Source of the DNA: a virus
Direction: 5' to 3' (one strand)
DNA length: 25,883 bases
Virus record (IMG/VR): IMGVR_UViG_3300048586_000265
Coordinates: 1-25,883 of that record
Below the pieces are notes generated by a model, which worked only from the letters and a program-made list of their open reading frames with translations, made no database searches and had not been told where the DNA came from. The position numbers and the translations under genes were made by a program. Numbering within the stretch: the stretch's first letter is position 1; each line of letters begins with the position of its first letter. Positions 1 through 25,883 of this stretch are shown here, one piece after another.

Positions 1-143
1 CCTGAGGGGGGTGGGGGGGGGGGGGCGTCACAGCCGGGTTGACGTCCCGAAGGCCGCCGAGCCAGTCGTCGTACTTGCCGACCTCGACGCCCTTGGCCTT
101 CAACTCGGCGTACACCATGAAGGCCAGGTCGTCCACCCCCGGC
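1..143. repeat. Left copy of 143-bp terminal overlap
   Basis: This stretch recurs at 25741-25883. Positions 18-143 are identical (126 bases). In the first 17 bases the two copies differ at positions 6, 7, 11 and 17, and in each case this copy has G. That pattern looks like poly-G read-end error, so the right copy is the more trustworthy one. The overlap implies a circular assembly of 25,740 bp. Confidence 0.9.
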
Positions 144-6635: not shown

Positions 6636-6644
6636 GTCGGTCAC
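6615..6644 (-). promoter_or_regulatory. Candidate late promoter upstream of terminase
   Basis: On the minus strand GTGACC (6644-6639) and TACAAT (6620-6615) are separated by 18 bases. They fit a sigma70-type -35/-10 pair. TACAAT sits in the hairpin loop and arm, and transcription would begin roughly 30 bases before the terminase ATG. The same design precedes the capsid gene. This is inference from consensus matching. Confidence 0.5.
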
Positions 6645-7066
6645 GCTCCGGACGAGCCGAACCCGTTGTGGCCCCTGGGGGTCTCGGGCATCTCGCCTTC
6701 GACCGGGACCACGGCCTGGGCGACGTTGAGCATGGGGATCGCCTGGCAGATCCGCTCGCCATCAGTCAGGGTGACGGCCTGGTCGGTCAGGTTGCGGACC
6801 ACGCCGAACAGCGGACCGGTGTAGCCGGGGTCGATCACTCCCGGGTTGAGCATCAGGCCCCGGTTCTTGAAGGTCGAGGACCGGCCGATCAGCAGCAGCC
6901 AGCAGCCGGTCGGTGCCTTGAGCCTGGTACGCAGCGGGATGCTGGCGAAGGCATGCGGCCCGATCCAGTGGTCTCCCTCGACGGCCAGGTCGAACCCGGC
7001 ATCGTCGTGGTAGGCCCTGGTGGGGGCCTGGCCCTGATAGATCATCCTGCCACCATGACGGGTCAT
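6641..7066 (-). CDS. dut: dUTP diphosphatase (trimeric dUTPase)
   Basis: A 141-residue enzyme hydrolysing dUTP to dUMP and pyrophosphate, which keeps uracil out of DNA. All five trimeric dUTPase motifs are visible: AGFDLAV near residue 24 (motif 1), GRSSTFKNRG near 76 (motif 2), GVIDPGYTGPL near 90 with the catalytic Asp and Tyr (motif 3), GERICQAIPM near 115 (motif 4) and RGHNGFGSSGA at the end (motif 5). ATG 7066 overlaps the previous stop by 4 bases and has GGAGGAG upstream. An internal ATG at 7045 is possible but has no better ribosome site. It is the last gene of the four-gene nucleotide operon and is followed by a strong hairpin. Confidence 0.93.
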   Translation of the reverse strand: MTRHGGRMIYQGQAPTRAYHDDAGFDLAVEGDHWIGPHAFASIPLRTRLKAPTGCWLLLIGRSSTFKNRGLMLNPGVIDPGYTGPLFGVVRNLTDQAVTLTDGERICQAIPMLNVAQAVVPVEGEMPETPRGHNGFGSSGA

Positions 7067-7440
7067 GTCTGCTGCTCCTCCAACCAGGCCAACGCCTGCT
7101 CGATGGTCTTGACCTGCGGGATGTCCATGAAGGTGAGGGCCCAGGACGGCGCGATGTCGCCGACCACCAGGGCCCGCACCCCGCTCTGGGCCGCCTCCAC
7201 GATCTCGGCCACGACTCCGATCGACAGCCGGTTGGCGTCCACCAGGGCCAGGACGACATCGACCTTGCGGATCACGGCGTGGTTGGCCGCTTGAAGGCCG
7301 GGGACCAGTGGGGCACCCTCACCGACCGACCAGGCCCGGGCCGGGTCGAAGATCACGTGGCCGTGGGTGAGCAGGGCCCGGCGGGCGTCTGCGGTGTCCA
7401 GGGGGCCCTGATCGATCGGGTGGGCCAGGTAGATCAGCAT
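7063..7440 (-). CDS. Nucleoside 2-deoxyribosyltransferase-like protein
   Basis: A 125-residue protein starting MLIYLAHPIDQGPLDT. The N-terminal strand-loop YLAHPID and the later VDVVLALVDANRLSIGVVAEI (residues 60-80) match the layout of the nucleoside 2-deoxyribosyltransferase-like Rossmann fold. In that family YLAxP begins the nucleoside site, and a Glu in the G(T/V)xxEI segment (here Glu79) is the nucleophile. Such enzymes exchange or hydrolyse deoxyribonucleosides or nucleotides. Length is close to the family minimum. It overlaps the MazG-like gene by 7 bases and the dUTPase by 4, so it belongs to the purZ-dut operon and may tune purine deoxynucleotide pools. Fold call moderate; substrate unknown. 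Confidence 0.6.
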   Translation of the reverse strand: MLIYLAHPIDQGPLDTADARRALLTHGHVIFDPARAWSVGEGAPLVPGLQAANHAVIRKVDVVLALVDANRLSIGVVAEIVEAAQSGVRALVVGDIAPSWALTFMDIPQVKTIEQALAWLEEQQT

Positions 7441-7895
7441 GCCGGGCCGCAATCGTGCTCGGCCCCGAGGCCCGGGAAGGCCCCTCCGAGGCCCTGGGAG
7501 CCCGGGGTGGCCCCAGAGGGCCCGGGCGGGCTCTCGTGGCCTCCCGTGGCCCTTCCTGGGCCGGGAAGGGGCACTCCCGGCCAGCCGCCTGCCTCCCGGA
7601 TCCGCTGGACCATCCTCACGTACACCCCCAGGTCCAGCCAGGAGTCGTCGCTGGGCATCCGGCCCTCGTGCCAGGCCGCCTCGATCCTGGCCATCTTGCC
7701 GACCGCGTAGGCCAGACAGCCCAACTCGGCGTGCTGGGCGTCGGTCAGGCCCTCGCGCCCGGCCATGTGAGCCAGCGAGCGGCCCATCTCGACCAGATCG
7801 CGGGCCCCGTACTCGACCGCCTTGGCGACCACCATCTCGATCTCGGACTCGGCCTTGGCCCGCCACCAGCCAGCCAGGGCCTGCTCGGCGCTCAC
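7434..7895 (-). CDS. MazG-like nucleotide pyrophosphohydrolase, MazZ candidate
   Basis: A 153-residue protein starting VSAEQALAGWW. The GTG start overlaps the purZ stop (GTGA). Residues 1-105 are all-helical, with Glu57 in AQHAELGCL, then AVGKMARI and PSDDSWLDLGVYVRMV (81-95). An acidic helix followed by a DxxxD-type helix is how phage MazG-like and related all-alpha NTP pyrophosphohydrolases bind Mg. In Z-genome phages the MazG-family enzyme MazZ turns dGTP into dGMP, the PurZ substrate, and the direct coupling to purZ suggests that job here. The last 45 residues are a Pro/Gly-rich tail encoded by a GC repeat that also occurs in the PrimPol gene. The classical EExxE motif is not clear, so the enzymatic call is tentative. 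Confidence 0.5.
   Translation of the reverse strand: MSAEQALAGWWRAKAESEIEMVVAKAVEYGARDLVEMGRSLAHMAGREGLTDAQHAELGCLAYAVGKMARIEAAWHEGRMPSDDSWLDLGVYVRMVQRIREAGGWPGVPLPGPGRATGGHESPPGPSGATPGSQGLGGAFPGLGAEHDCGPAC
7533..7553. repeat. GC-rich repeat copy in MazG-like tail
   Basis: A 21-base stretch, core CTCGTGGCCTCCCGTGGCCC, recurs in the same orientation at 10761-10781. It sits in a longer GGCC/GGGCC-rich segment (about 7440-7565) that encodes a low-complexity Pro/Gly tail. Confidence 0.7.
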
Positions 7896-8938
7896 TGAGC
7901 CGCCCCCATCTCGAACATGGTCCCCGGGCCGGTCCCGACCAGGGCCACCTTGGCCTGGGTCTGGTCCTCGATCATCCAGATCAGGTCCGACAGGTCCTTG
8001 GGCAGGTCCGAGTGCCAGCGGGTGCCGGACAGACCCGCGACCTGCGGGAACAGATGATCGGCCATGGTCAGCGCGATCCGGGCGACCGGGGCCCCACCGT
8101 TGGCCACCACGGCCTCGGCGGCCAGGTCCCGGTCCCAGGCCCCGACCCGGCGGGGCTTGCGAGTCACGGTGGTCAACTCGACCGGCAGACCCAGGGCCTC
8201 CCAGGTGGTCTCGCCACGCAGGGGGCCGCTGTTGCCAGCGACCCGGATCGGGTTGGGCCTCATCGCGACGTAGACCTCGAGGTCGGCCACGTTGGCCTGC
8301 CAGGGGCTCAGGCCCGCCATGGCCAGGAAGTCGATGGCCCGGCAATCGCTGCTCGTACACTGGGGGTAGAACCCGGCATGGAGCCCGAGCCCGTAGCCCT
8401 GGGTGCCCTCGATGATCACCCGGCCGCCATCGGTCAGGACCTCGTTGAGCACCACGCTGGCCTCGGTCGAGCCACCCCACAACTCGGCGGTCCGCATGAT
8501 CCGGTCGGCCCTGGCGGCCCCGATGCCCTTGCCGGTCGAGCCCACCTTGGCCGTGAGGGCCGCCTGCGCCTCGGCGACCTGGTGGCGGCCGGGCTCGAGC
8601 ACCGTCGCCTGCCAGTCGATGGTGAGCCGGTCGCGCACCTTGAACCCGGCACCCTCGAGCATCTCGATCTCGTGCTCGAGCACCGACCCGTCGATCTCCG
8701 ACCCGGCTGCGATCACCAGCAGCGCCTCGGGGTCGGTGACCGCCGCGACCGGGACGGTGCGCAGGGCCCAGACCCGTCCGGTCGGGTCGGTGGCCGAGTG
8801 CCCCGCGTTGGGACCCGCCACCCTCACGACCGCCGTGGGACCGCTGGGGTGAGGCTGGCGGCTCAGGTGCGCGACGACCGCGCCCTTGCCCTCCGAGCCG
8901 AACTGGCCGCCGACGACGACCTGGATCTTTCCACTCAT
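7892..8938 (-). CDS. purZ: PurZ-type adenylosuccinate synthetase homologue (2-aminoadenine synthesis)
   Basis: A 348-residue PurA-superfamily enzyme, the short archaeal/phage form (bacterial PurA is about 430). The P-loop is GGQFGSEGKGA (residues 10-20): Ser15 replaces the catalytic Asp of GDEGKG in PurA, the established PurZ hallmark. Other family blocks are AGPNAGHS (41-48), STGKGIGAA (134-142), EGTQGYGLGLHAG (177-189), TSSDC (195-199) and KPRRVGAWD (261-269). PurZ condenses dGMP with aspartate to N6-succinyl-2-amino-dAMP, which PurB cleaves to dZMP. ATG 8938 follows AGGAG. The gene leads a coupled operon with MazG-like, deoxyribosyltransferase-like and dUTPase genes and lies next to the putative origin. 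LTMADH (290-295) keeps an Asp where PurA binds guanine, so GTP use (PurZ0-like) is possible. Confidence 0.9.
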   Translation of the reverse strand: MSGKIQVVVGGQFGSEGKGAVVAHLSRQPHPSGPTAVVRVAGPNAGHSATDPTGRVWALRTVPVAAVTDPEALLVIAAGSEIDGSVLEHEIEMLEGAGFKVRDRLTIDWQATVLEPGRHQVAEAQAALTAKVGSTGKGIGAARADRIMRTAELWGGSTEASVVLNEVLTDGGRVIIEGTQGYGLGLHAGFYPQCTSSDCRAIDFLAMAGLSPWQANVADLEVYVAMRPNPIRVAGNSGPLRGETTWEALGLPVELTTVTRKPRRVGAWDRDLAAEAVVANGGAPVARIALTMADHLFPQVAGLSGTRWHSDLPKDLSDLIWMIEDQTQAKVALVGTGPGTMFEMGAAQ

Positions 8939-9215: not shown

Positions 9216-11360
9216 TCATGGGAGGACCAGCCCGTCGTCTGCTCCACGCAGCCGACCGGTGTTCATCGCCCCCCGGACGGCCCCTTCGAGGGCCCGTACG
9301 CCACTCCTTCCGCCGTTCTCCTTCGCGGCCTCGGACCAGGCCACCCGGCCCGCCTTCGTGCCCGGCGAGAAAGGCTCAGGGTGGCGGGCAGCGACCAGCC
9401 CGACCAGGATCTCGATGTCGGCCTGGTCCTTGTCGCGGCGCTCGCGCTCGGCCTTGGTCGAGACGGTCCCGGAGACCAGCCCGAGCAGACGGCCTTCGGG
9501 CTCGTAGGCCAGCGGGGTCTCGGCCACCAGCACATCACGTCCCACGGCGGCGAAGGTCCGGTTCAGCGGTGCGCTGAACAGGGCCTCGAGGTCGTCGGCG
9601 GGCTCGGTGTCCTCGTCCTTGCGATCCAGCCTCCACAGGGCGTCGGGCCAGCCCTCGAAGGCCGAGGCACCCCGGGCCCGGGTCGCCGAGTGGCCGTGGT
9701 GGTGGACCACCAGCAGGTCGGCCCCGACATCGGCGGCCAGGGCGTCCAACCCGGCCAGGACCACCGCAACCTCACTGTTGCTGTTCTCGTCCATCCCGAG
9801 CCCGGCCAGCACCGGACCCAGCGGGTCGACCACGATCACTGAGCAGCCCCGGTCGGTCAGGGTCTTGCGCCAGCGGTCCCGGGCCTTGTCCGAGCGCAGG
9901 TCGAAACTGGCGGCCCGACCTCGCATCGGCACCAGGTGGATCCGGTCGGTGGCCTGCCGGTCCAGGCCGAGTGAGGAGTGCCAGTCGTGCTGCTGGCGCA
10001 GGCTCATCTCGATGTCGAATACCACGATCGACCCGTCGATCGGGGCCACGTCGAACCGGCCCAGGAACGGCTCGCCGGTCAACAGGCTGCGCTCGATGTT
10101 GAGCACCATGGTGGTCTTGCCCGCCTTTGCGCTGGCCGTCAGCAGCACCTTACCGCCACTCGGCCACAGGTCCTCGATCCGCCAGGCGACATCCTCGGGC
10201 GGGTGCTCGAGCAGGTCGGTCAGCCTGACCGGTTCAGGGTGGACCAGCGCCAGGCCCAGGCGCTCGGCGTCGTACTCGCGGGCCTCCCGGTCCAGCCGGA
10301 ACTGTTCGGCCCGGCGCACGACCGCCTGGGCCCACAGGTCGCCCGAGGGCTCGGGAGGGGCCTCGGTGGGCTCGTCAGCGGCGGTCCCGGGCTCGGCGAC
10401 CGAGCCGCAGCAGGACCACATCAGCGGGTCGGCGACCTCGATCTTGTCCAGTGCCTGCTCGACCGCCCGCTTGAACTCTTCGAACACCCCGGCCCGGTCG
10501 TCGCCCATGGCTTCCAGGAACCCGTCACGGATCAGGGCCAGTGCGTCGTTGCGCCCCGAGTGGCCCTCGGCCCACCCGGCGATCACGGCCCAGACCCCCT
10601 TGGTCATCGCGTCATGCCTGCTGCCCTCGACCATGCCCTCGATGGCCCGGGCGGCCTGCCGGGACAGGTACTCACACGGAGGACCACCCACGGGAGGCCC
10701 AGGAACGGCCACGGGAGCCCCTGGGGCGGCCCCGGGGCCCGCTGGCACCCGGGAGGCCCCCTCGTGGCCTCCCGTGGCCCTCCGTGGGCCTCGCAGGGCC
10801 AGCAGGGCGCTGGCCACCACCAGCGGCAGGACCGGCAGACTGGCGACCGGGGGCAGGAATTCCAGCACCGCACCGGTCCGCTGGTCGATCGCTCGGTACT
10901 CGGCTTGCGCGTCGGGGTTCCACGAGCCCGGGGCCATCGAGTAGCGGTGGCCGAACCGCAGGATCTCACCAGCACCGAACCCGGTAGGCAGGTCGGCCTG
11001 ATCGACCGTCTCGGGCAGCCGGTACAGCCAGTGGCCGCCCTCGTCGGCCCGAGCGTTGATCACCACTGTGGCTGGCAACTTCGAGCGCAGGGTGTCCCAG
11101 CGGATCGAGTCGCCCCCCTTGTACAGATCGACGTCCAGCGCGATCACCGAGACCGGGTAGCGCACCCCGAGGTTGCCCCAGCGCTCGGGGTCGGCCTCCA
11201 CGACCGCGTACCAGTCGGCGAACGAGGGCAGCGGATTCTTCTGCCCCTGGAACCCCCCGGGCTCGGGGGCCTTGGCCTTGGTGGCCAGCGGGATCGGGCC
11301 GTAGCCGTGCTCGGCCAGGGCCAGCGCCCGGGCCATCAGGTCCGGGTGGATCTCATTCAT
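9216..11360 (-). CDS. Bifunctional PrimPol (AEP) and RepA-like helicase/ATPase
   Basis: A 714-residue replication protein starting MNEIHPDLMARALALAEHGY behind a GGAG site. Residues 1 to about 185 form an archaeo-eukaryotic primase/polymerase domain: IALDVD (74-78) gives the catalytic Asp76 and Asp78, and EGGHWLYR has His110. A GC-repeat linker follows (about 190-230). After a helical PriCT-like segment (about 235-330) comes a RecA/RepA-type ATPase: Walker A ASAKAGKT near 408-415, VVFDIE near 446-450, the strand VIVVDPLG near 507-512 and VVHHHGHS near 553. The protein could prime and unwind at the adjacent origin. No other DNA polymerase is encoded, so either this protein or host Pol III copies the genome. 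In cyanophage S-2L a PrimPol also serves a Z genome. Confidence 0.88.
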   Translation of the reverse strand: MNEIHPDLMARALALAEHGYGPIPLATKAKAPEPGGFQGQKNPLPSFADWYAVVEADPERWGNLGVRYPVSVIALDVDLYKGGDSIRWDTLRSKLPATVVINARADEGGHWLYRLPETVDQADLPTGFGAGEILRFGHRYSMAPGSWNPDAQAEYRAIDQRTGAVLEFLPPVASLPVLPLVVASALLALRGPRRATGGHEGASRVPAGPGAAPGAPVAVPGPPVGGPPCEYLSRQAARAIEGMVEGSRHDAMTKGVWAVIAGWAEGHSGRNDALALIRDGFLEAMGDDRAGVFEEFKRAVEQALDKIEVADPLMWSCCGSVAEPGTAADEPTEAPPEPSGDLWAQAVVRRAEQFRLDREAREYDAERLGLALVHPEPVRLTDLLEHPPEDVAWRIEDLWPSGGKVLLTASAKAGKTTMVLNIERSLLTGEPFLGRFDVAPIDGSIVVFDIEMSLRQQHDWHSSLGLDRQATDRIHLVPMRGRAASFDLRSDKARDRWRKTLTDRGCSVIVVDPLGPVLAGLGMDENSNSEVAVVLAGLDALAADVGADLLVVHHHGHSATRARGASAFEGWPDALWRLDRKDEDTEPADDLEALFSAPLNRTFAAVGRDVLVAETPLAYEPEGRLLGLVSGTVSTKAERERRDKDQADIEILVGLVAARHPEPFSPGTKAGRVAWSEAAKENGGRSGVRALEGAVRGAMNTGRLRGADDGLVLP
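10761..10781. repeat. GC-rich repeat copy in PrimPol linker
   Basis: Same 21 bases as 7533-7553, in the same orientation. It sits in a GGGCC/CCACGGG-rich segment (about 10680-10800) that encodes the Pro/Gly/Ala linker between the primase and helicase halves. Confidence 0.7.
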
Positions 11361-12224: not shown

Positions 12225-13022
12225 TCAAGACCTCCACGCGATCTCGCGGCTCGAGCGCCAGGCACGCACCCGCACCGAGTGCTGGGCCATCTCCCAGCCG
12301 GTCGAGATGTCCAGCCAGACCAACTCGCACCGAGCCTGGCCCTGGGGCAGCCAGATCATCAGGGCCCGATCCTGGTCCACGTGCTCGGACAGATCGACCG
12401 TGCGCTGGTCGGTGCTCGTGTCGTAGACCGTGCCGTGGGCGTAGACCGCACACTGGACCGAGGCCGAGTGCGGGTAGGCCGCCGCATGCGTGCCGGTCTT
12501 GATGTCTGCGATGAAGGTTCCCTCGTCGGTGCGCACCAGCCGGTCGAACGACCCGGCCGTGCGGATCGAGTCGCAGACCACGAAGGTCTCGCGGGCCAGC
12601 ATCTGAAGGCCCTCGGTCGCCTGGCGGTAGGCGGCCAGGTCGGCGGCCACTTCGCCCGAGACCCCGAGCGCCTCGATCGGCTCGCCATCATCGACCCGCT
12701 CGGTCAGCGCGTGGAGTGCCGTGCCCATGTTGGCTGCGGCCTGCGACTCGGCCGCCTCCATCGCCTGCTCGGCAATCTCGTTCAGGGCCGCCTTGTCACC
12801 AGGGTCGACCGACGCTGCCAGGGCCCGCAGGTCGGCCCGGCGGGCCAGCCCGATGATCACCTGGCGCTGCTTCCAGGCCATCAACCCGTAGGTGTCGGTC
12901 AGGGTCGTGGCCAGGGTCGAGGCCCGGGTGTAGGCGACCCGCTTACCGCCGGTTGCCGGGACCAACAGCGGTCGGCCCCAGCGGTCCCGGGGCGGCCCGG
13001 CGAAGGCCGCATCCAGGCTCAC
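12225..13022 (-). CDS. RecB/Cas4-family PD-(D/E)XK exonuclease
   Basis: A 265-residue nuclease starting VSLDAAFAGPPRDRWG. GTG 13022 overlaps the previous stop (GTGA). Active-site elements occur in RecB order: GTALHAL with His104, GSFDRLV with Asp160, FIADIKTG with Asp173 and Lys175, and the downstream QCAVY (190-194), a QxxxY motif. Such enzymes act as 5'-3' exonucleases in phage recombination and replication, or in degrading host DNA. The protein lacks an obvious four-Cys iron-sulphur cluster of Cas4. It belongs to a coupled run of genes from the resolvase-like nuclease through PurB. Confidence 0.82.
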   Translation of the reverse strand: MSLDAAFAGPPRDRWGRPLLVPATGGKRVAYTRASTLATTLTDTYGLMAWKQRQVIIGLARRADLRALAASVDPGDKAALNEIAEQAMEAAESQAAANMGTALHALTERVDDGEPIEALGVSGEVAADLAAYRQATEGLQMLARETFVVCDSIRTAGSFDRLVRTDEGTFIADIKTGTHAAAYPHSASVQCAVYAHGTVYDTSTDQRTVDLSEHVDQDRALMIWLPQGQARCELVWLDISTGWEMAQHSVRVRAWRSSREIAWRS

Positions 13023-13303
13023 TGGTCGCCCTCGAAGGTCAGCGGCGTGCGCAGGCCGGGGGTGGTCGCGACCCAGGCCAGCCGGTCTGCGTCCGAGTCG
13101 AAGTAGTGGACCAGCACCTTGGGGTTGGTCTGGGACCAGGCCGGGTCCACCAGGACCACGGCGTAGTTGCTGGCGGGCAGGTTGACGCTGTAGACCTGGG
13201 TGCCGTCCACGTCCCCGAGATGGGTGATGTGCGGGGCTCCTGCCAGGCACGCCAACACCAACTCGCGGCTGGTCGGCCGGTTGACGTCGCTGCGTCGGAT
13301 CAT
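13019..13303 (-). CDS. Hypothetical protein between PurB and exonuclease
   Basis: A 94-residue protein starting MIRRSDVNRPTSRELVLACL. The ATG overlaps the purB stop by 4 bases, and its own stop overlaps the exonuclease start. The N-terminal helix is followed by strands QVYSVNLPASNYAVVLVD and KVLVHYFDSDADRLAWVA, suggesting a small alpha/beta fold. I do not recognise a family. Tight coupling on both sides says it is really translated. Confidence 0.7.
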   Translation of the reverse strand: MIRRSDVNRPTSRELVLACLAGAPHITHLGDVDGTQVYSVNLPASNYAVVLVDPAWSQTNPKVLVHYFDSDADRLAWVATTPGLRTPLTFEGDQ

Positions 13304-14520
13304 GAGTGCTGCTCCTTGTTCGATTCGGCCGGGCGTGAGCCCAGCAGGCGGGTGATCTCGGCCAGGTGGCCGAGGTCGGGTCGAAGGTCGAGGTCGTCCA
13401 CCCGCACGGCCGGGTCGGCCGCCATCTCACGGGCGGCGGCGTACGAGACCCCGGCCCGCTGGATCTTGGTCAGCCTGGCGTGTGCGCTGGTGTTGCGGGC
13501 GGTGGCGATGTTGCGGGCCATCTGCTCGGTGTTGAACACCAGGTCGGTGACCAGCCGGGTCATCAGGTTCAGCAGATAGCCGGTCGTGTTGGCCATCTGC
13601 CCGACCAGCAGCCGCTCGACCGAGGAGTGGCTGATGTCCCGGTCATGCCAGGACGCCACGTTGGCCCACAGGGCGGTCGAATCGGCCACCACCACCCGGG
13701 CCAGCCCGCAGGCCCTCTCGGCCTCGATCGGGTTGCGCTTGCCCGGCATGGCCGAGGAGCCCGCGCGGCCCTCCGAGGCCCCTTCTCGGGCCTCGTCGAT
13801 ACCTTCCTGGGCCCACAGCCGGATCTGGACCGCCACGGCCTCGCAGGCGGTGGCCAGCCCGGCCAGGGTCGCACCCCAGGCGGCCAGCGAGTCGCGGGGG
13901 TAGATCTGGCTGGCGACCCGGGCTCGAGGCAGGCGCAGGTGCTCGGCGGCCCGGTCGGCCACGTCGGGACTGATCTCGTGGTGCCCGCCCGAGGGCCCAC
14001 CGATCTTGGCGACCTCGACCCACTCGCAGGCTTCCTGGAACCGCAGCACGCAGCGACTGACCATCAGGGCCAGGTCGAGCAGGCGGTGGCCCAGCGTGTC
14101 GATGACCGCTGACTGGCCGTGGGTCCGAGCCAGCCTCGGAGTGTCGGCATGCTCGGCCGCTCGGGCCAGCAGCGCCTCGCGCAGCCGGAACCCCTCTTCG
14201 ATCAGCACGTGGTTGACCTCGCGCAGCCGCAGGGCCAGGCCCGTGTCGGTGACGTCGCTGCTGGTCAGCCCGATGTGGACGTGCTCGAGCCCCCAGGCCA
14301 GCAGGAACCCGACGACCTCGTGGCCGCACTCGGCCGTGGCGGCCTGCCATGCCTCGACGCTGGGGGCTGGGGCCTCGAAGGCCTGCTCGGCCCAGGCCAC
14401 CGGGATCTGCCCGTGCTCAGCCTGCGCCAGCAGGACCGCACGCTCGACCGCGCACCAGGTATCCAGCACGGCCTCGGGGCACAGGTTGATCTCGACGGCG
14501 GGGTGGGTGTAGGGGCTCAT
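13300..14520 (-). CDS. purB: Adenylosuccinate lyase (phage-encoded PurB)
   Basis: A 406-residue member of the fumarase/aspartase superfamily. It starts MSPYTHPAVEIN. Family blocks in order: GLTSSDVTDTGLA near residue 82 (substrate-binding SSDV), RTHGQSAVIDTLG near 131 (catalytic His region), KIGGPSGGHHE near 170, and the signature loop GSSAMPGKRNPIEAE near 254 with the catalytic Ser. The enzyme splits succinyl-AMP to AMP and fumarate. With PurZ present, it would convert N6-succinyl-2-amino-dAMP to dZMP. The TSSDVTDT and MPGKRNP details favour ASL over argininosuccinate lyase or fumarase. ATG 14520 overlaps the upstream nuclease stop. Cellular PurB is usually 430-480 residues, so this is a compact form. 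Confidence 0.92.
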   Translation of the reverse strand: MSPYTHPAVEINLCPEAVLDTWCAVERAVLLAQAEHGQIPVAWAEQAFEAPAPSVEAWQAATAECGHEVVGFLLAWGLEHVHIGLTSSDVTDTGLALRLREVNHVLIEEGFRLREALLARAAEHADTPRLARTHGQSAVIDTLGHRLLDLALMVSRCVLRFQEACEWVEVAKIGGPSGGHHEISPDVADRAAEHLRLPRARVASQIYPRDSLAAWGATLAGLATACEAVAVQIRLWAQEGIDEAREGASEGRAGSSAMPGKRNPIEAERACGLARVVVADSTALWANVASWHDRDISHSSVERLLVGQMANTTGYLLNLMTRLVTDLVFNTEQMARNIATARNTSAHARLTKIQRAGVSYAAAREMAADPAVRVDDLDLRPDLGHLAEITRLLGSRPAESNKEQHS

Positions 14521-14852
14521 CGGCCAGCGTCCTTCAACAGGGCGGCCAGACGACCGGCCGGGAGGATCGCGTACCACTGGCCCACATCGGTGGACCCCCG
14601 GCGCTTGGCGATCACGAACCCGGTATCCGCCTTGGCGTTGGAGATCTCGGCCTCCAACTCGGCCAGCCACCCGGCCAGGTCTACCTTGGCGGTGTTCTTG
14701 ACCTCGATCACGACCCCGGGCAGCCCGGCGATGTCGCCCTGGTCGGCCGCCCCGGTCAGGGCCCGACGCTCGGCCGCCAGCCAGCCCTGGTCGCGCAGCC
14801 AGGCGACCACCGCCGACTCGCCCGCCGTGCCCTTGCGCTTGCTCCTGTTCAT
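14517..14852 (-). CDS. PD-(D/E)XK nuclease, Holliday-junction-resolvase-like
   Basis: A 111-residue protein starting MNRSKRKGTAGESAVVAWLR. The motif order matches archaeal-type (Hjc-like) resolvases and related phage nucleases: an N-terminal Glu in GTAGESAV, then DQGDIAGLPG with Asp, and GVVIEVKNT with the E-x-K pair. Length is right for Hjc-like enzymes. The ATG at 14852 follows GGAGCAAGGG. An open frame extends further upstream but over the hairpin and gap, so it is rejected. The stop overlaps the purB start by 4 bases. It may resolve branched replication intermediates or trim DNA for packaging. Confidence 0.78.
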   Translation of the reverse strand: MNRSKRKGTAGESAVVAWLRDQGWLAAERRALTGAADQGDIAGLPGVVIEVKNTAKVDLAGWLAELEAEISNAKADTGFVIAKRRGSTDVGQWYAILPAGRLAALLKDAGR

Positions 14853-14879
14853 ACCCTTGCTCCCTGGTCTCTTGTTCGT

Positions 14880-14916
14880 CCCGGGTGGGGTGGCTTCCCC
14901 ACCAGCCCCACCCGGG
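14880..14916 (-). terminator. Hairpin between HicA-like and resolvase-like genes
   Basis: Arms 14880-14890 and 14906-14916 pair over 11 bp, with three more inner pairs possible. It lies in the 111-bp gap after the HicA-like stop (14964). A weak -10-like TACGGT lies on the minus strand at 14928-14923, so a promoter for the downstream operon may overlap it. Confidence 0.6.
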
Positions 14917-14963
14917 GCCCGTACCGTAGCACACCCCGTGCCCGGCCGTCTAGCCCTAGTCAT

Positions 14964-15744: not shown

Positions 15745-15948
15745 TCAGGCCTGGGCCTTGCGGGCCGCGCGGCGGATCGCCTTGGCGCTCATCACGCCGC
15801 CGCAGGGCAGGCGGTAGAAGCCGGGGTCGGGGGTCTCGGTCCAGACCATCTCGCCGTCGATCCACTGGCCCACCCGGCTGGTGTTCTCGGCCAGGGTCCC
15901 GGCCTCGAGCATCGCGAGGATCTCGGCGGGGGTGTGGGTGCTGGTCAT
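15745..15948 (-). CDS. Hypothetical small early protein
   Basis: A 67-residue protein starting MTSTHTPAEILAMLEAGTLA, with GAGGAG 8 bases before the ATG. It has an N-terminal helix, a Trp-rich middle (GQWIDGEMVWTETPDPGFYRL) and a basic helical end (AKAIRRAARKAQA). It follows one of the TATAAC repeat elements (15988-16033), which probably drives it. No family recognised. Confidence 0.65.
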   Translation of the reverse strand: MTSTHTPAEILAMLEAGTLAENTSRVGQWIDGEMVWTETPDPGFYRLPCGGVMSAKAIRRAARKAQA

Positions 15949-15987
15949 GGTGGCTGCTCCTCTGATCGGTTCTGGCTGGACAGGTTC

Positions 15988-16033
15988 GTTATACCCACCC
16001 CGGCCCGGGTTCAAACCTCGGGCCGGGTGTGGG
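15988..16033 (-). promoter_or_regulatory. Hairpin-TATAAC repeat element, copy A
   Basis: On the minus strand TTGAAC (16014-16009) and TATAAC (15993-15988) are 15 bases apart. They are embedded in a long imperfect inverted repeat (15993-16033). Three further copies keep the 15-base spacing. Each lies upstream of a small gene, here the 67-residue one. Confidence 0.6.
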
Positions 16034-16038
16034 CTCGG

Positions 16039-16257
16039 TCACAGGTTCTCGGCTCGCCACTGGGCCGCGTACTCGGTGGCCGGGAATCGGCCGTCGCGCT
16101 GGAAGGCCTCGACCGCCGAGTGGAGGTTGTCGCTGGGGCGGCCCCCGGTCAGGTTGCCGATCGTCCAGGCCTCGCCCATCAGGGCCTCGATGGTCTCGGG
16201 GTCGGTGATCCCGGCGCGGTCCAGGACGGCCTGCTGGCGGGGGTGGAGGGTTCGCAT
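16039..16257 (-). CDS. Hypothetical small early protein
   Basis: A 72-residue protein starting MRTLHPRQQAVLDRAGITDP, with AAGGAG upstream. Mostly helical: a GITDPETIEALMGEAWTIG helix pair, then SAVEAFQRDG and a C-terminal YAAQWRAENL. It lies directly after the TAGACGTCTA element at 16307-16338. Its stop is just before the copy A hairpin. No family recognised. Confidence 0.65.
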   Translation of the reverse strand: MRTLHPRQQAVLDRAGITDPETIEALMGEAWTIGNLTGGRPSDNLHSAVEAFQRDGRFPATEYAAQWRAENL

Positions 16258-16306
16258 CGTGTCTGCTCCTTGATCGGGGGGCCGGTCCGTCCCGGCCTCA
16301 CATGAT

Positions 16307-16338
16307 TATTCAACCATAGACGTCTACCCCTGAACAAG
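16307..16338 (-). promoter_or_regulatory. TAGACGTCTA promoter/operator-like element, copy 1
   Basis: A 32-base element shared with 17989-18020 and 18991-19022. It has a perfect 10-bp palindrome TAGACGTCTA (16317-16326). On the minus strand TTGTTC stands 18 bases ahead of TTGAAT, possibly a promoter with an operator in its spacer. It overlaps the end of the upstream gene and precedes the 72-residue gene. Confidence 0.5.
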
Positions 16339-16677
16339 TCGGACCCTCTGGTCGATCACCCGGCAGCGGTGCTCGGGCAGGACCAGCAGCCCCGGCCGCC
16401 GGGGGCTGGCCGCCGTGCGCCACTCGATCCGGCCGCCGTGGATCGAGGGTAGGCCCCAACTCGGCCAGCCCAGCAGCCACAGGGCCGCCTCCCCGACCAC
16501 GCTCAACGGCACGGGGTCGAGATCGACGTCGAGCCCGGCCGAGTCGGCATCGAGCCCCGAGACCACGCCCCGGCCGCACTTGGGGCACCTGCGGGCCTGG
16601 GGGGTTCGGGACGTGTGGCGCTGCGTGAGCACCCCCGCCGAGACCAGCCGGGCCAGGACCGGCCCGGGAAGGCTCAC
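16324..16677 (-). CDS. Hypothetical zinc-knuckle protein
   Basis: A 117-residue protein starting VSLPGPVLARLVSAGVLTQR. GTG 16677 overlaps the previous stop. It has a CPKCGRGVVSGLDAD segment near residue 31, which is common in small actinophage proteins, and a later Cys in LPEHRCRVIDQ that could complete a metal site. The stop lies inside the TAGACGTCTA element. Function unknown. Confidence 0.7.
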   Translation of the reverse strand: MSLPGPVLARLVSAGVLTQRHTSRTPQARRCPKCGRGVVSGLDADSAGLDVDLDPVPLSVVGEAALWLLGWPSWGLPSIHGGRIEWRTAASPRRPGLLVLPEHRCRVIDQRVRLVQG

Positions 16678-17027
16678 GAGGGGGTCTCCGAGGCCCTCTT
16701 GCTGGCTCGGCGTGCCTTCGGCCCCAGCGGGGCCGGGATGACCTCGAAGATGCCTCCCCGGCCTCCGACGCCCAGCCCGGACTCCCAGACCTTGGTGGCA
16801 GCGTCAGCGGTGGCGTACGGGCCGAAGATCAGCGGCCGGTTGAACCCGGTCGCCTCGCGGACCACCAGCACGTACCGGGTCTTGGAGTGGTCCTCGGCCG
16901 TGACCACGGCATGCGCCATGATCTCGCAGAACGCGTCGAGGTCGCCAGCCACCAGCGCCTCGCGCCCCGCCGGGATGGCGGCCCGCACGGCCTCCCGGTG
17001 GGCCTTCAAGACCCTGGGGTTGCTCAC
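16674..17027 (-). CDS. Hypothetical protein
   Basis: A 117-residue protein starting VSNPRVLKAHREAVRAAIPA. GTG 17027 overlaps the HTH gene stop by 4 bases (GTGA), and its own stop overlaps the next start. The first half is helical. The second half (RYVLVVREATGFNRPLIFGPYATADAATKVW) has strand-turn-helix segments, and the tail is basic (KARRASKRASETPS). No family recognised. Coupling to the HTH gene suggests co-regulation. Confidence 0.7.
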   Translation of the reverse strand: MSNPRVLKAHREAVRAAIPAGREALVAGDLDAFCEIMAHAVVTAEDHSKTRYVLVVREATGFNRPLIFGPYATADAATKVWESGLGVGGRGGIFEVIPAPLGPKARRASKRASETPS

Positions 17028-17230
17028 AGCCGACCCCAGGTGCTCAGCACCTTGTACACCGTCGCCCGGCTCATCCCGGCGGTCTCGGTGATGACCGTGC
17101 GGTTGAACCCGGCATCGTCGGCCGCGACCAGGGCCTGGTCCAACTCGGCTCGAGCCTCGTCCATCTTGGCCTGCGCACGCGACAGGGCCCGGGCCTTGCT
17201 GGCCAGGTCCCGCAGGATCGCCTCGTTCAT
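17024..17230 (-). CDS. Small HTH DNA-binding protein
   Basis: A 68-residue protein starting MNEAILRDLASKARALSRAQ, with GAGGGAG upstream. Residues 4-37 are a heptad-like helix, probably for dimerisation. Residues 44-64 (RTVITETAGMSRATVYKVLST) form a helix-turn-helix, with AGMSRATVY as the turn and recognition helix, much like resolvase/Hin or small transcription-regulator HTHs. It is the only clear regulator in the early region. It may bind the repeated elements nearby, which is inference. Confidence 0.72.
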   Translation of the reverse strand: MNEAILRDLASKARALSRAQAKMDEARAELDQALVAADDAGFNRTVITETAGMSRATVYKVLSTWGRL

Positions 17231-17257
17231 GTCGTCTCCCTCGGTGGGTATCGGGGC

Positions 17258-17281
17258 GGGGGCCGCCGGGTGGCGGCCCCC
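17258..17281 (-). terminator. Hairpin before the HTH gene
   Basis: A perfect 10-bp GC stem (17258-17267 with 17272-17281) closed by a 4-base loop. It lies directly after the stop of the 187-residue gene at 17293 and before the HTH gene. Confidence 0.7.
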
Positions 17282-17292
17282 GGGTCGTGCTG

Positions 17293-17856
17293 TCAGCCCT
17301 CGATCAGGGTGTACTGGAAGGTCGTGGCCTTGGCCCCGCTCTTGGTGGTGTAGTGGAACTCGTCGCCAGCCTCGACCGTGCCCTCGTAGACCCAGCGGCC
17401 GACCTTGGCCTTGACGGTCGGCTTGGCGGTGGTCTTGGGCTTGTGGCCGCCGACCGGCTTGCCGTTGGACTTGACCGGGCGCTTGGCCCCGGCGGCCACG
17501 GCCTCGGCAAACCCGAACTGGCTGGCGTAGGTCAGCGGGTCGGTGGTCTTGGCCATGCCGCCGTCGAGGACGGTCACGTCGCCGTTGAGCCGGGCCGCCG
17601 TGATCAGCAGGCCCTTGACCCGGGCGTCGTGGCCGGGGGCGAAGGTGCGCTTGGTCTCCTGGTCGCACATGGTCTCGAGGTAGACCCAGCCCGCCTCGTC
17701 GCCGATCACTGTGTCCAGGTAGGCGCGGTGGTTGCGCGGCAGGGCCTGGGCGTTGAAGGGCTTGTCGGTCTCGGCCGGGATGTCGATTCGGATCTGGCCG
17801 CACAGGCAGGGGTGGGTCTTGCTGGCGGTGCTCGTCTCGATCGTGGTGCTGGTCAT
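17293..17856 (-). CDS. Hypothetical early protein
   Basis: A 187-residue protein starting MTSTTIETSTASKTHPCLCG, with AGGAGCAGAC before the ATG. A CLCG knuckle near residue 17 could bind metal. A basic low-complexity linker (KRPVKSNGKPVGGHKPKTTAKPTVKAK, about residues 124-150) separates the main domain from a C-terminal strand-rich segment (GRWVYEGTVEAGDEFHYTT). The linker may contact nucleic acid. It is preceded by both repeat elements (17898-17945 and 17989-18020), so it is probably strongly expressed early. No family recognised. Confidence 0.75.
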   Translation of the reverse strand: MTSTTIETSTASKTHPCLCGQIRIDIPAETDKPFNAQALPRNHRAYLDTVIGDEAGWVYLETMCDQETKRTFAPGHDARVKGLLITAARLNGDVTVLDGGMAKTTDPLTYASQFGFAEAVAAGAKRPVKSNGKPVGGHKPKTTAKPTVKAKVGRWVYEGTVEAGDEFHYTTKSGAKATTFQYTLIEG

Positions 17857-17897
17857 GTCTGCTGCTCCTTGATTGGTGGGTTGTCGCTTGCGGTTCG

Positions 17898-17945
17898 GTT
17901 ATACCCCCTCGGGCCGGGTCTCAAACTCGGTGCCGATGTGGGCTC
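17898..17945 (-). promoter_or_regulatory. TATAAC repeat element, copy B
   Basis: Minus-strand TTGAGA (17924-17919) and TATAAC (17903-17898), again 15 bases apart. In this copy the inverted-repeat arms have diverged and no longer pair well, while the two boxes and their spacing remain. That favours a promoter over a terminator role. Confidence 0.55.
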
Positions 17946-17988
17946 GATCACGTTCTGTGCTGGTGGGCCGGGGCGGCCCGCCGAGGGC

Positions 17989-18020
17989 TATTCAACCATA
18001 GACGTTTATCTGTGGTCAAA
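17989..18020 (-). promoter_or_regulatory. TAGACGTCTA-like element, copy 2
   Basis: Variant copy with TAGACGTTTA in the centre. The -35-like box is TTGACC (18019-18014), a better consensus match than TTGTTC in the other copies, at the same distance from TTGAAT. Confidence 0.5.
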
Positions 18021-18038
18021 CGGGCCCCCGGCTGGGGG

Positions 18039-18224
18039 TCAGCGCCCGGTGGCCCGGTGGCCGTGGGCCGCCCGGTCGGCCTGGACTCGCGACCAGAACC
18101 CGTACTTGCGGGTCCCGCAGGAGCAGGCGTAGGACCAGGTGGTGGTCTTGCGCCCGGCCTGGGTCTGGCGCTGGTGCTCGCTGATGGCGGTGTTGTGGGC
18201 GAAGAGGTTGTCGGTGTTCGGCAT
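18039..18224 (-). CDS. Hypothetical small protein
   Basis: A 61-residue protein starting MPNTDNLFAHNTAISEHQRQ, with AAGGAG 7 bases before the ATG. The ACSCGTRKYGFW segment (about residues 33-44) looks like half of a zinc knuckle in a basic context, and the end is basic (RAAHGHRATGR). It is preceded by repeat copy C. Function unknown. Confidence 0.65.
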   Translation of the reverse strand: MPNTDNLFAHNTAISEHQRQTQAGRKTTTWSYACSCGTRKYGFWSRVQADRAAHGHRATGR

Positions 18225-18262
18225 GGTCGCTGCTCCTTGGTCGGTTTGTTGCTTGCGGTTTG

Positions 18263-18308
18263 GTTGTACCCACCCCGGCCCGGGTTCAAACCCGAGCCGG
18301 GTGTGGGC
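18263..18308 (-). promoter_or_regulatory. Hairpin-TATAAC repeat element, copy C
   Basis: Minus-strand TTGAAC (18289-18284) and TACAAC (18268-18263), 15 bases apart. The long inverted repeat (18268-18308) is nearly identical to copies A and D. It precedes the 61-residue gene. Confidence 0.6.
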
Positions 18309-18312
18309 CGTG

Positions 18313-18639
18313 TCACCCGGTGGTGACGTTGCGGCGGTAGTTGACCGCCGTCTTGGTCGCGGCCAGCGCGTCGGCGATGTCGTCCACCACCAGGGTCTTG
18401 CCGGTCGGCAGGCTGACCATCGCGTCGCGCAGGGTCTGGGCCATCTCGACCAGCGCCGAGCCGACCGCCCAGTGGGCCACGCCGTACTCGAGCGTCATGG
18501 CGTCGATCTCGAGGCTCAGGTCCCGAGCCCGGTCGAGCAGGTCGGCCGATCGGGTCCCGGCCCGCAGGAACAGGCGGGCGGTGGCGATGGCCTGGCGGGC
18601 CTCGAAGGTGTTCAGGGTGATCCCGACGATGTTCGACAT
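18313..18639 (-). CDS. Hypothetical helical protein
   Basis: A 108-residue protein starting MSNIVGITLNTFEARQAIAT, with AAGGAG before the ATG. It is almost wholly helical (EARQAIATARLFLRAGT, ADLLDRARDLSLEIDAM, VGSALVEMAQTLRDAM), with a short strand KTLVVDDI. The frame continues upstream through copy D of the hairpin repeat, but that part is noncoding. No family recognised. Confidence 0.7.
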   Translation of the reverse strand: MSNIVGITLNTFEARQAIATARLFLRAGTRSADLLDRARDLSLEIDAMTLEYGVAHWAVGSALVEMAQTLRDAMVSLPTGKTLVVDDIADALAATKTAVNYRRNVTTG

Positions 18640-18678
18640 GGTGGCTGCTCCTTGAATCGGTTCTTGCTGGACGGGTTC

Positions 18679-18724
18679 GTTATACCCACCCCGGCCCGGG
18701 TTCAAACCCGAGCCGGGTGTGGGT
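18679..18724 (-). promoter_or_regulatory. Hairpin-TATAAC repeat element, copy D
   Basis: Minus-strand TTGAAC (18705-18700) and TATAAC (18684-18679), 15 bases apart. The inverted repeat spans 18684-18724 with arms of about 19 bases, one mismatch and one bulge. It precedes the 108-residue gene. Confidence 0.6.
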
Positions 18725-18728
18725 TCGG

Positions 18729-18941
18729 TCACTCCGGGCGGTGGGTGACCAGCACGGGGGTCTCGGGGTTGAGCACGATCTCGGCCATCTGGCCAGCGTT
18801 GGGGGCGTCCATCCAGACCGTGATGATGATCCCGTCCTGTCGCTCGTTGGGCTGGGCGTCCTCGACCATCAGCGGTCGGGCGGTCAGCCCGTGAATGTGG
18901 ATCGTGTCGGCGGCCTGGATCTGGTCGGCGGTGGTCAGCAT
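18729..18941 (-). CDS. Hypothetical small protein, first gene of the early region
   Basis: A 70-residue protein starting MLTTADQIQAADTIHIHGLT. Strand-rich: QAADTIHIHGL, GIIITVWMDA, AEIVLNPETPVLVTHRP. It looks like a small beta-barrel similar to short actinophage early proteins. It lies just downstream of TAGACGTCTA element copy 3, which suggests that early leftward transcription begins here. No family recognised. Confidence 0.68.
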   Translation of the reverse strand: MLTTADQIQAADTIHIHGLTARPLMVEDAQPNERQDGIIITVWMDAPNAGQMAEIVLNPETPVLVTHRPE

Positions 18942-18990
18942 CTGCGCTCCTGGTGTCTCGGCGGCCGGGTCCGTCCCGGCCTCACGAGAC

Positions 18991-19022
18991 TATTCAACCA
19001 TAAACGTCTACCCCTGAACAAG
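18991..19022 (-). promoter_or_regulatory. TAGACGTCTA-like element, copy 3 (start of early region)
   Basis: 32 bases almost identical to copy 1, with TTGTTC and TTGAAT 18 bases apart on the minus strand and a TAGACGTTTA centre. It sits between the late-operon terminator and the first early gene, the expected place for the first early promoter. Confidence 0.55.
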
Positions 19023-19033
19023 CCGGGACACGG

Positions 19034-25602: not shown

Positions 25603-25883
25603 CGCTTCCTCCTGGTCGCCTGGTTCCGCTTGTTGATCACGTCCACCATCGTGGCCAACATACCGGGGTCAAGGTCGAGCAGCGCTGACGGCGAGATCCC
25701 GGTCTCGACCGCCAACTCCACGATCAGTCGCTCGACGGTTCCTGATCGGGCTGGGGCGGGGGGGGCGTCACAGCCGGGTTGACGTCCCGAAGGCCGCCGA
25801 GCCAGTCGTCGTACTTGCCGACCTCGACGCCCTTGGCCTTCAACTCGGCGTACACCATGAAGGCCAGGTCGTCCACCCCCGGC
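25599..25883 (-). CDS. Tail assembly chaperone, 3' part with -1 frameshift (continues at left end)
   Basis: This continues the gene that starts at 262. The zero frame ends QPDQEPSSD with TGA at 25726-25724. A -1 shift on the slippery heptamer C CCC CCG (25763-25757) instead gives APARSGTVERLIVELAVETG and ends NKRNQATRRKR at the TGA 25601-25599. The shifted product has 134 residues and the unshifted one 92. The extension is helical with a basic end. Without a shift the distance between start and this stop (404 bases) is not a multiple of three. Programmed -1 slippage between G and G-T is a hallmark of siphovirus tail chaperones, in which the T extension binds the tail tube protein. Confidence 0.82.
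   Translation of the reverse strand, partial: AGGGRPGLHGVRRVEGQGRRGRQVRRLARRPSGRQPGCDAPPAPARSGTVERLIVELAVETGISPSALLDLDPGMLATMVDVINKRNQATRRKR
25741..25883. repeat. Right copy of 143-bp terminal overlap
   Basis: Matches positions 1-143, with four differences in the first 17 bases. This copy has the normal mixed sequence there, where the left copy has G. It joins the two ends of a circular assembly. Confidence 0.9.
25757..25763 (-). promoter_or_regulatory. Programmed -1 ribosomal frameshift site
   Basis: The minus-strand heptamer C CCC CCG fits the X XXY YYZ rule, and both tRNAs can re-pair one base back. It sits in an 8-C run (25765-25758) about 30 bases before the zero-frame stop at 25724. 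Confidence 0.75.

Follow-up and report, generated by a model that had tools for sequence, protein, structure and literature searches.

Introduction

Does a phage predicted to place 2-aminoadenine (Z) in its DNA depend on its host for the lyase step that converts N6-succino-2-amino-dAMP (dSMP) to dZMP, or does it encode that enzyme itself? Published accounts, a 2026 study of PurZ0 enzymes among them, credit the step to host enzymes (PMC12884076, PMC8342488, PMC12783734), as the initial annotation of the locus studied here had noted. For phiVC8, host enzymes suffice in vitro, and no enzymes for this conversion were identified in the genome of cyanophage S-2L (PMC8342488). The question arises from a virus record in IMG/VR (25,883 bp, 70% G+C), analysed here at full length and called the window, which carries both PurZ and PurB genes. 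Direct terminal repeats of 143 bp and 97% identity (1..143 and 25741..25883, both plus strand) give a genome of about 25.74 kb, in line with the 25.7 kb first proposed.

Results

The purB open reading frame (14520..13300, minus strand) opens with ATG and spans 406 codons, encoding 406 amino acids. Its product matches Pfam Lyase_1 (E=2e-32) and, as its best NCBIfam match, TIGR00928 purB (E=6e-76); at 256 bits, below the trusted cut-off of 326 bits, it scores as a diverged member of this family. An AlphaFold model (pLDDT 87, pTM 0.84), poorly predicted in its C-terminal part, has the ADSL fold and finds its closest PDB structure in B. anthracis PurB (2pfm, TM 0.91). The catalytic histidines and signature-loop residues are present (H67, H82, H134, S255, S256, K261, N263 and E268), as are the motifs GLTSSDVTDT and GSSAMPGKRNP from which a full adenylosuccinate lyase had initially been recognized. 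By family match, catalytic residues and fold, the open reading frame is an adenylosuccinate lyase (PurB), whose predicted activity is that of an N6-succino-2-amino-dAMP lyase.

Active-site alignment, which the initial annotation had proposed, revealed catalytic residues that are unchanged and some positions at which Z-linked PurBs differ from cellular ones. In B. subtilis-like numbering, which we use for the alignment, H68, H141, S94, D96, Q212, R216, R241, E250, S262, K268, N270, E275, D302, S306 and E309 are invariant in 34 of 34 Z-linked PurBs. By contrast, R58, I62, G178, R368 and Q376 are conserved across cellular PurBs and for the most part in PurA-linked ones, yet the Z-linked proteins vary at these positions. 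The initial annotation's suggestion of a lyase adapted to the 2-amino deoxynucleotide may hold, but among the differing positions residue comparison assigned no contact to the 2-amino group. Bacterial PurBs of the Bacillus/Thermotoga type (1f1o, 1c3u, 2pfm) share fold and catalytic residues with the window protein at about 30% identity, whereas the Z-linked group departs from them at several positions fixed in cellular enzymes.

The window protein also carries substitutions of its own: firstly, the usual signature MPHKRNP has glycine in place of histidine (H267G), the sole case among the 34 Z-linked PurBs; secondly, R67 is replaced by glycine (R67G); thirdly, the N-terminal arginine R4, kept in 24 of the 28 Z-linked PurBs aligned there, is proline (R4P). 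These three changes make the activity of this particular enzyme less certain than that of its family. Changes at residues conserved elsewhere, together with the poorly predicted C-terminal part of the model, are what one might expect of a recently captured host gene or of a copy in decay that no longer serves a function, but we consider this very improbable: the catalytic residues are intact, purifying selection acts on its relatives, with dN/dS of about 0.04-0.3 where pairs are unsaturated, and the nearest relatives, at 40% identity, are PurBs of other PurZ phages rather than cellular enzymes. Moreover, M. tuberculosis PurB (9oo0) scores 143 bits against the phage profile, as compared to 326 bits for the Bacillus/Thermotoga type.

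The gene is embedded among nuclease genes, as originally described. Upstream lies a Holliday-junction-resolvase-like gene (14517..14963, minus strand; phrog_244, E=5e-25), whose stop overlaps the purB ATG; downstream, a small open reading frame (13019..13303, minus strand) has its start in overlap with the purB stop and is followed by a RecB/Cas4-like exonuclease (12225..13022, minus strand; PF12705, E=9e-7; phrog_466, E=4e-68) with a start placed from the junction. At both purB ends the overlap of first or last codon with the neighbouring gene takes the form ATGA.

PurZ (7892..8938, minus strand), a predicted succino-amino-deoxyadenylate synthase, bears the motif GSEGKG, in which serine replaces the aspartate of PurA (Asp13), and clears the NCBIfam PurZ cut-off (NF038379; 326.6 versus 300). 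It is 45-53% identical to PurZ0 proteins as compared to at most 34% for PurZ of the phiVC8 type, and we assign it to the PurZ0 group, not the PurZ group. Next in downstream order, with overlapping ends throughout, come a small conserved protein (7434..7895), a DmtZ-like protein (7063..7440) and a DutZ-like protein (6641..7066), all on the minus strand. The first is a homologue of Ghobes gp51 and Galactica gp66, and phages of Gordonia, Streptomyces and Curtobacterium likewise have a homologue immediately after PurZ0; it has neither a Pfam nor a PHROG match, a motif resembling MazG-like pyrophosphohydrolases was seen by eye, and an assignment to DUF5664 was rejected for want of Pfam support. The second belongs to the nucleoside deoxyribosyltransferase family by alignment and a weak match to PF05014 (E=0.006); Ghobes DmtZ itself likewise matches this Pfam family weakly, tblastn finds the window protein homologous to Wayne, Archimedes and Ghobes sequences, and DmtZ activity is predicted. 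The third is a dUTPase-family protein (Pfam dUTPase, E=4e-20), 45% identical to Wayne DutZ and 39% to Ghobes DutZ.

Among PurZ0 genomes, dutZ is found in 98 of 98 and dmtZ in 85 of 98, and in Ghobes and Wayne the DmtZ proteins are dAMP hydrolases/transferases and the DutZ proteins dATP/dGTP hydrolases (PMC12884076). By sequence match, the window has both companions. As in the PurZ0-DmtZ-DutZ system of Ghobes and Wayne, its PurZ0 gene is clustered with DmtZ-like and DutZ-like genes. The account of that system mentions no phage lyase and gives the conversion of dSMP to dZMP to the host (PMC12884076), whereas the window encodes PurB and lacks DpoZ. Like cyanophage S-2L (PMC8342488, PMC8065100), it couples PurZ with PrimPol as the only polymerase; S-2L, however, has a PurZ-type enzyme with DatZ/MazZ, whereas the window enzyme is of the PurZ0 type and is accompanied by DutZ/DmtZ-like genes and by PurB. 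From these genes we predict that 2-aminoadenine replaces A in the DNA of this virus of bacteria.

A single polymerase was found in the window, a PrimPol joined to an AAA helicase (9216..11360, minus strand); there is no DNA_pol_A match that would mark DpoZ-1 or DNA polymerase I. DpoZ-1 has been reported in PurZ0 phages (PMC12884076), as a common companion of these systems rather than a strict requirement. Of 41 PurZ0 records examined, the window included, 21 have no DNA polymerase I match and 37 have Prim-Pol; there may be a PrimPol-only group of PurZ0 phages, some of these records being fragments. Separately, repeats of 40-94 bp (families D1 and D3-D5) each recur several times among small open reading frames at 15939-19030, upstream of the replication genes.

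How widespread is a phage PurB among PurZ phages? Named phage records with PurZ/PurA-like matches number 211, and 11 of them (8 phages), all PurZ0 phages, also have a credible phage PurB. These are the Gordonia phages Ghobes, Sapo, Frizzle and Archimedes and the Streptomyces phages Galactica, Hiyaa, Spocter and Keanu, in which the gene is labelled 'PurB-like adenylosuccinate lyase' or 'adenylosuccinate lyase'. Like the window, they combine PurZ0 and PurB in one genome, and in Gordonia phages PurB is again part of a replication/recombination block, close to genes for primase-polymerase, exonuclease and resolvase. Their PurBs are 25-37% identical to that of the window and their genomes measure 45-83 kb; those inspected have DNA polymerase I, unlike the window. 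PurB was not detectable in PurZ0 phages of Arthrobacter, Microbacterium and Curtobacterium (Arthrobacter phage Wayne and Curtobacterium phage Parvaparticeps among them), which indicates that it is dispensable in some lineages. We discounted PurBs in 'phage' records of Listeria, Enterococcus, Staphylococcus, Microcystis and Acinetobacter as probably lying on bacterial DNA, a judgement based on one inspected neighbourhood, that of MaAM05 with its bacterial housekeeping genes, and on assemblies that were unannotated or fragmentary; Streptomyces plasmid PurBs lie in apparent biosynthetic clusters and do not adjoin PurZ.

A profile scan of IMG/VR returned 251 PurZ relatives, the best 80 of which were developed into loci; a scan with the window PurB as a single sequence gave no matches. 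PurB is present in 35 of 50 PurZ0 records drawn from the best PurZ0 matches (22 of 30 among those of at least 30 kb), and since many of the 50 are fragments, the true share among these records is at least 70%. With further loci and records counted, at least 48 IMG/VR records have both PurZ and PurB, one of them Hiyaa itself. The initial annotation had presented the co-occurrence as new; with PurB in 8 named PurZ0 phages and in most environmental PurZ0 records tested, many PurZ phages already carry it, and that novelty does not hold. Carriers are scattered over the PurZ0 tree, the best tree requiring 6 state changes, some of which are probably fragments merely missing purB. A link between PurB and the absence of DNA polymerase I is not claimed: the polymerase occurs in 9 of 23 PurB-positive as compared to 6 of 8 PurB-negative records (those of at least 30 kb plus the window; Fisher p=0.11), and the PurZ tree offers too small a number of independent changes for a test.

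In a protein tree of 79 PurBs, a branch with SH-aLRT 98 separates the 34 found in PurZ records from the other 45, of which 26 are cellular and 19 viral, 9 of the latter being PurA-linked. L143 and L179 were classed as PurZ-linked on finding PurZ in their records; the long rows L063, L173 and L161 (the last from a record showing no PurZ) were excluded, as was the E. coli outgroup, too diverged to place at 4 changes per site. The sampling is one without long actinobacterial PurBs, and long-branch attraction could have inflated the grouping of fast-evolving phage proteins. One exception stands out: L167 groups with cellular PurBs, yet its record (G064, 38.8 kb) has a distant Ser-motif PurZ-like protein (L304; GGQWGSEGKG in a 584-aa open frame). 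On other viral contigs (L165, L174, L183, L185-L187, L189, L190, L192-L201), PurB adjoins PurA (Asp motif, mostly GLQHGDEGKG), a phage pair for IMP to AMP.

Such pairs indicate that phages use PurB with canonical PurA for ordinary purine synthesis, and fold and catalytic residues in the window are those of an ordinary PurB. The gene might accordingly be one of general purine supply, an auxiliary metabolic gene acting on SAICAR and SAMP to yield more AMP rather than specifically on dSMP. We regard this as unlikely, because PurA-linked phage PurBs fall opposite the PurZ-linked ones in the tree, because the window showed neither PurA nor any further gene for purine synthesis, and because PurB tracks PurZ over long divergence: across 35 phages, PurB and PurZ distances correlate at r=0.886, as compared to 0.19 for the largest of 5000 permutations. 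In one lineage PurB lies directly downstream of PurZ, with gaps of 28-295 bp; in another the two are divergently adjacent.

Discussion

Together, these data favor a PurB dedicated to the phage and acting jointly with its PurZ0, a reading to which we give a probability of roughly three in four, with activity and substrate predicted from sequence. Since the phage has both genes, the branch from dGMP to dZMP can be phage-encoded, as the initial annotation proposed. PurZ0 would join dGMP and aspartate to form dSMP, PurB would remove fumarate to leave dZMP, and host kinases would then convert dZMP to dZTP, while the DutZ-like and DmtZ-like proteins adjoining PurZ probably lower dATP. The phage would likely gain a dependable draw on the first committed product in hosts that have little PurB or a PurB that handles the 2-amino deoxy substrate poorly.

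The co-occurrence of PurB with PurZ0 is known from annotation; it is the pattern that has been overlooked, and in a literature search whose scope left aside the original 2021 Science papers we found no publication reporting a phage PurB in Z phages. A bolder possibility, which we hold tentatively and rate somewhat below even odds, is that Z-linked phage PurBs form a separate enzyme lineage specialised for N6-succino-2-amino-dAMP, which was already there early in PurZ0 phages and co-evolves with PurZ0, such that the statement that the host supplies this step would be wrong for most PurZ0 phages. These PurBs would offer a defined enzyme family for probing selectivity on 2-amino deoxynucleotides, with possible use in engineering Z-DNA-making hosts, in which flux may be limited at the lyase step. 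For a large branch of phages, a PurB of their own would revise the accepted division of labour in Z-DNA synthesis.
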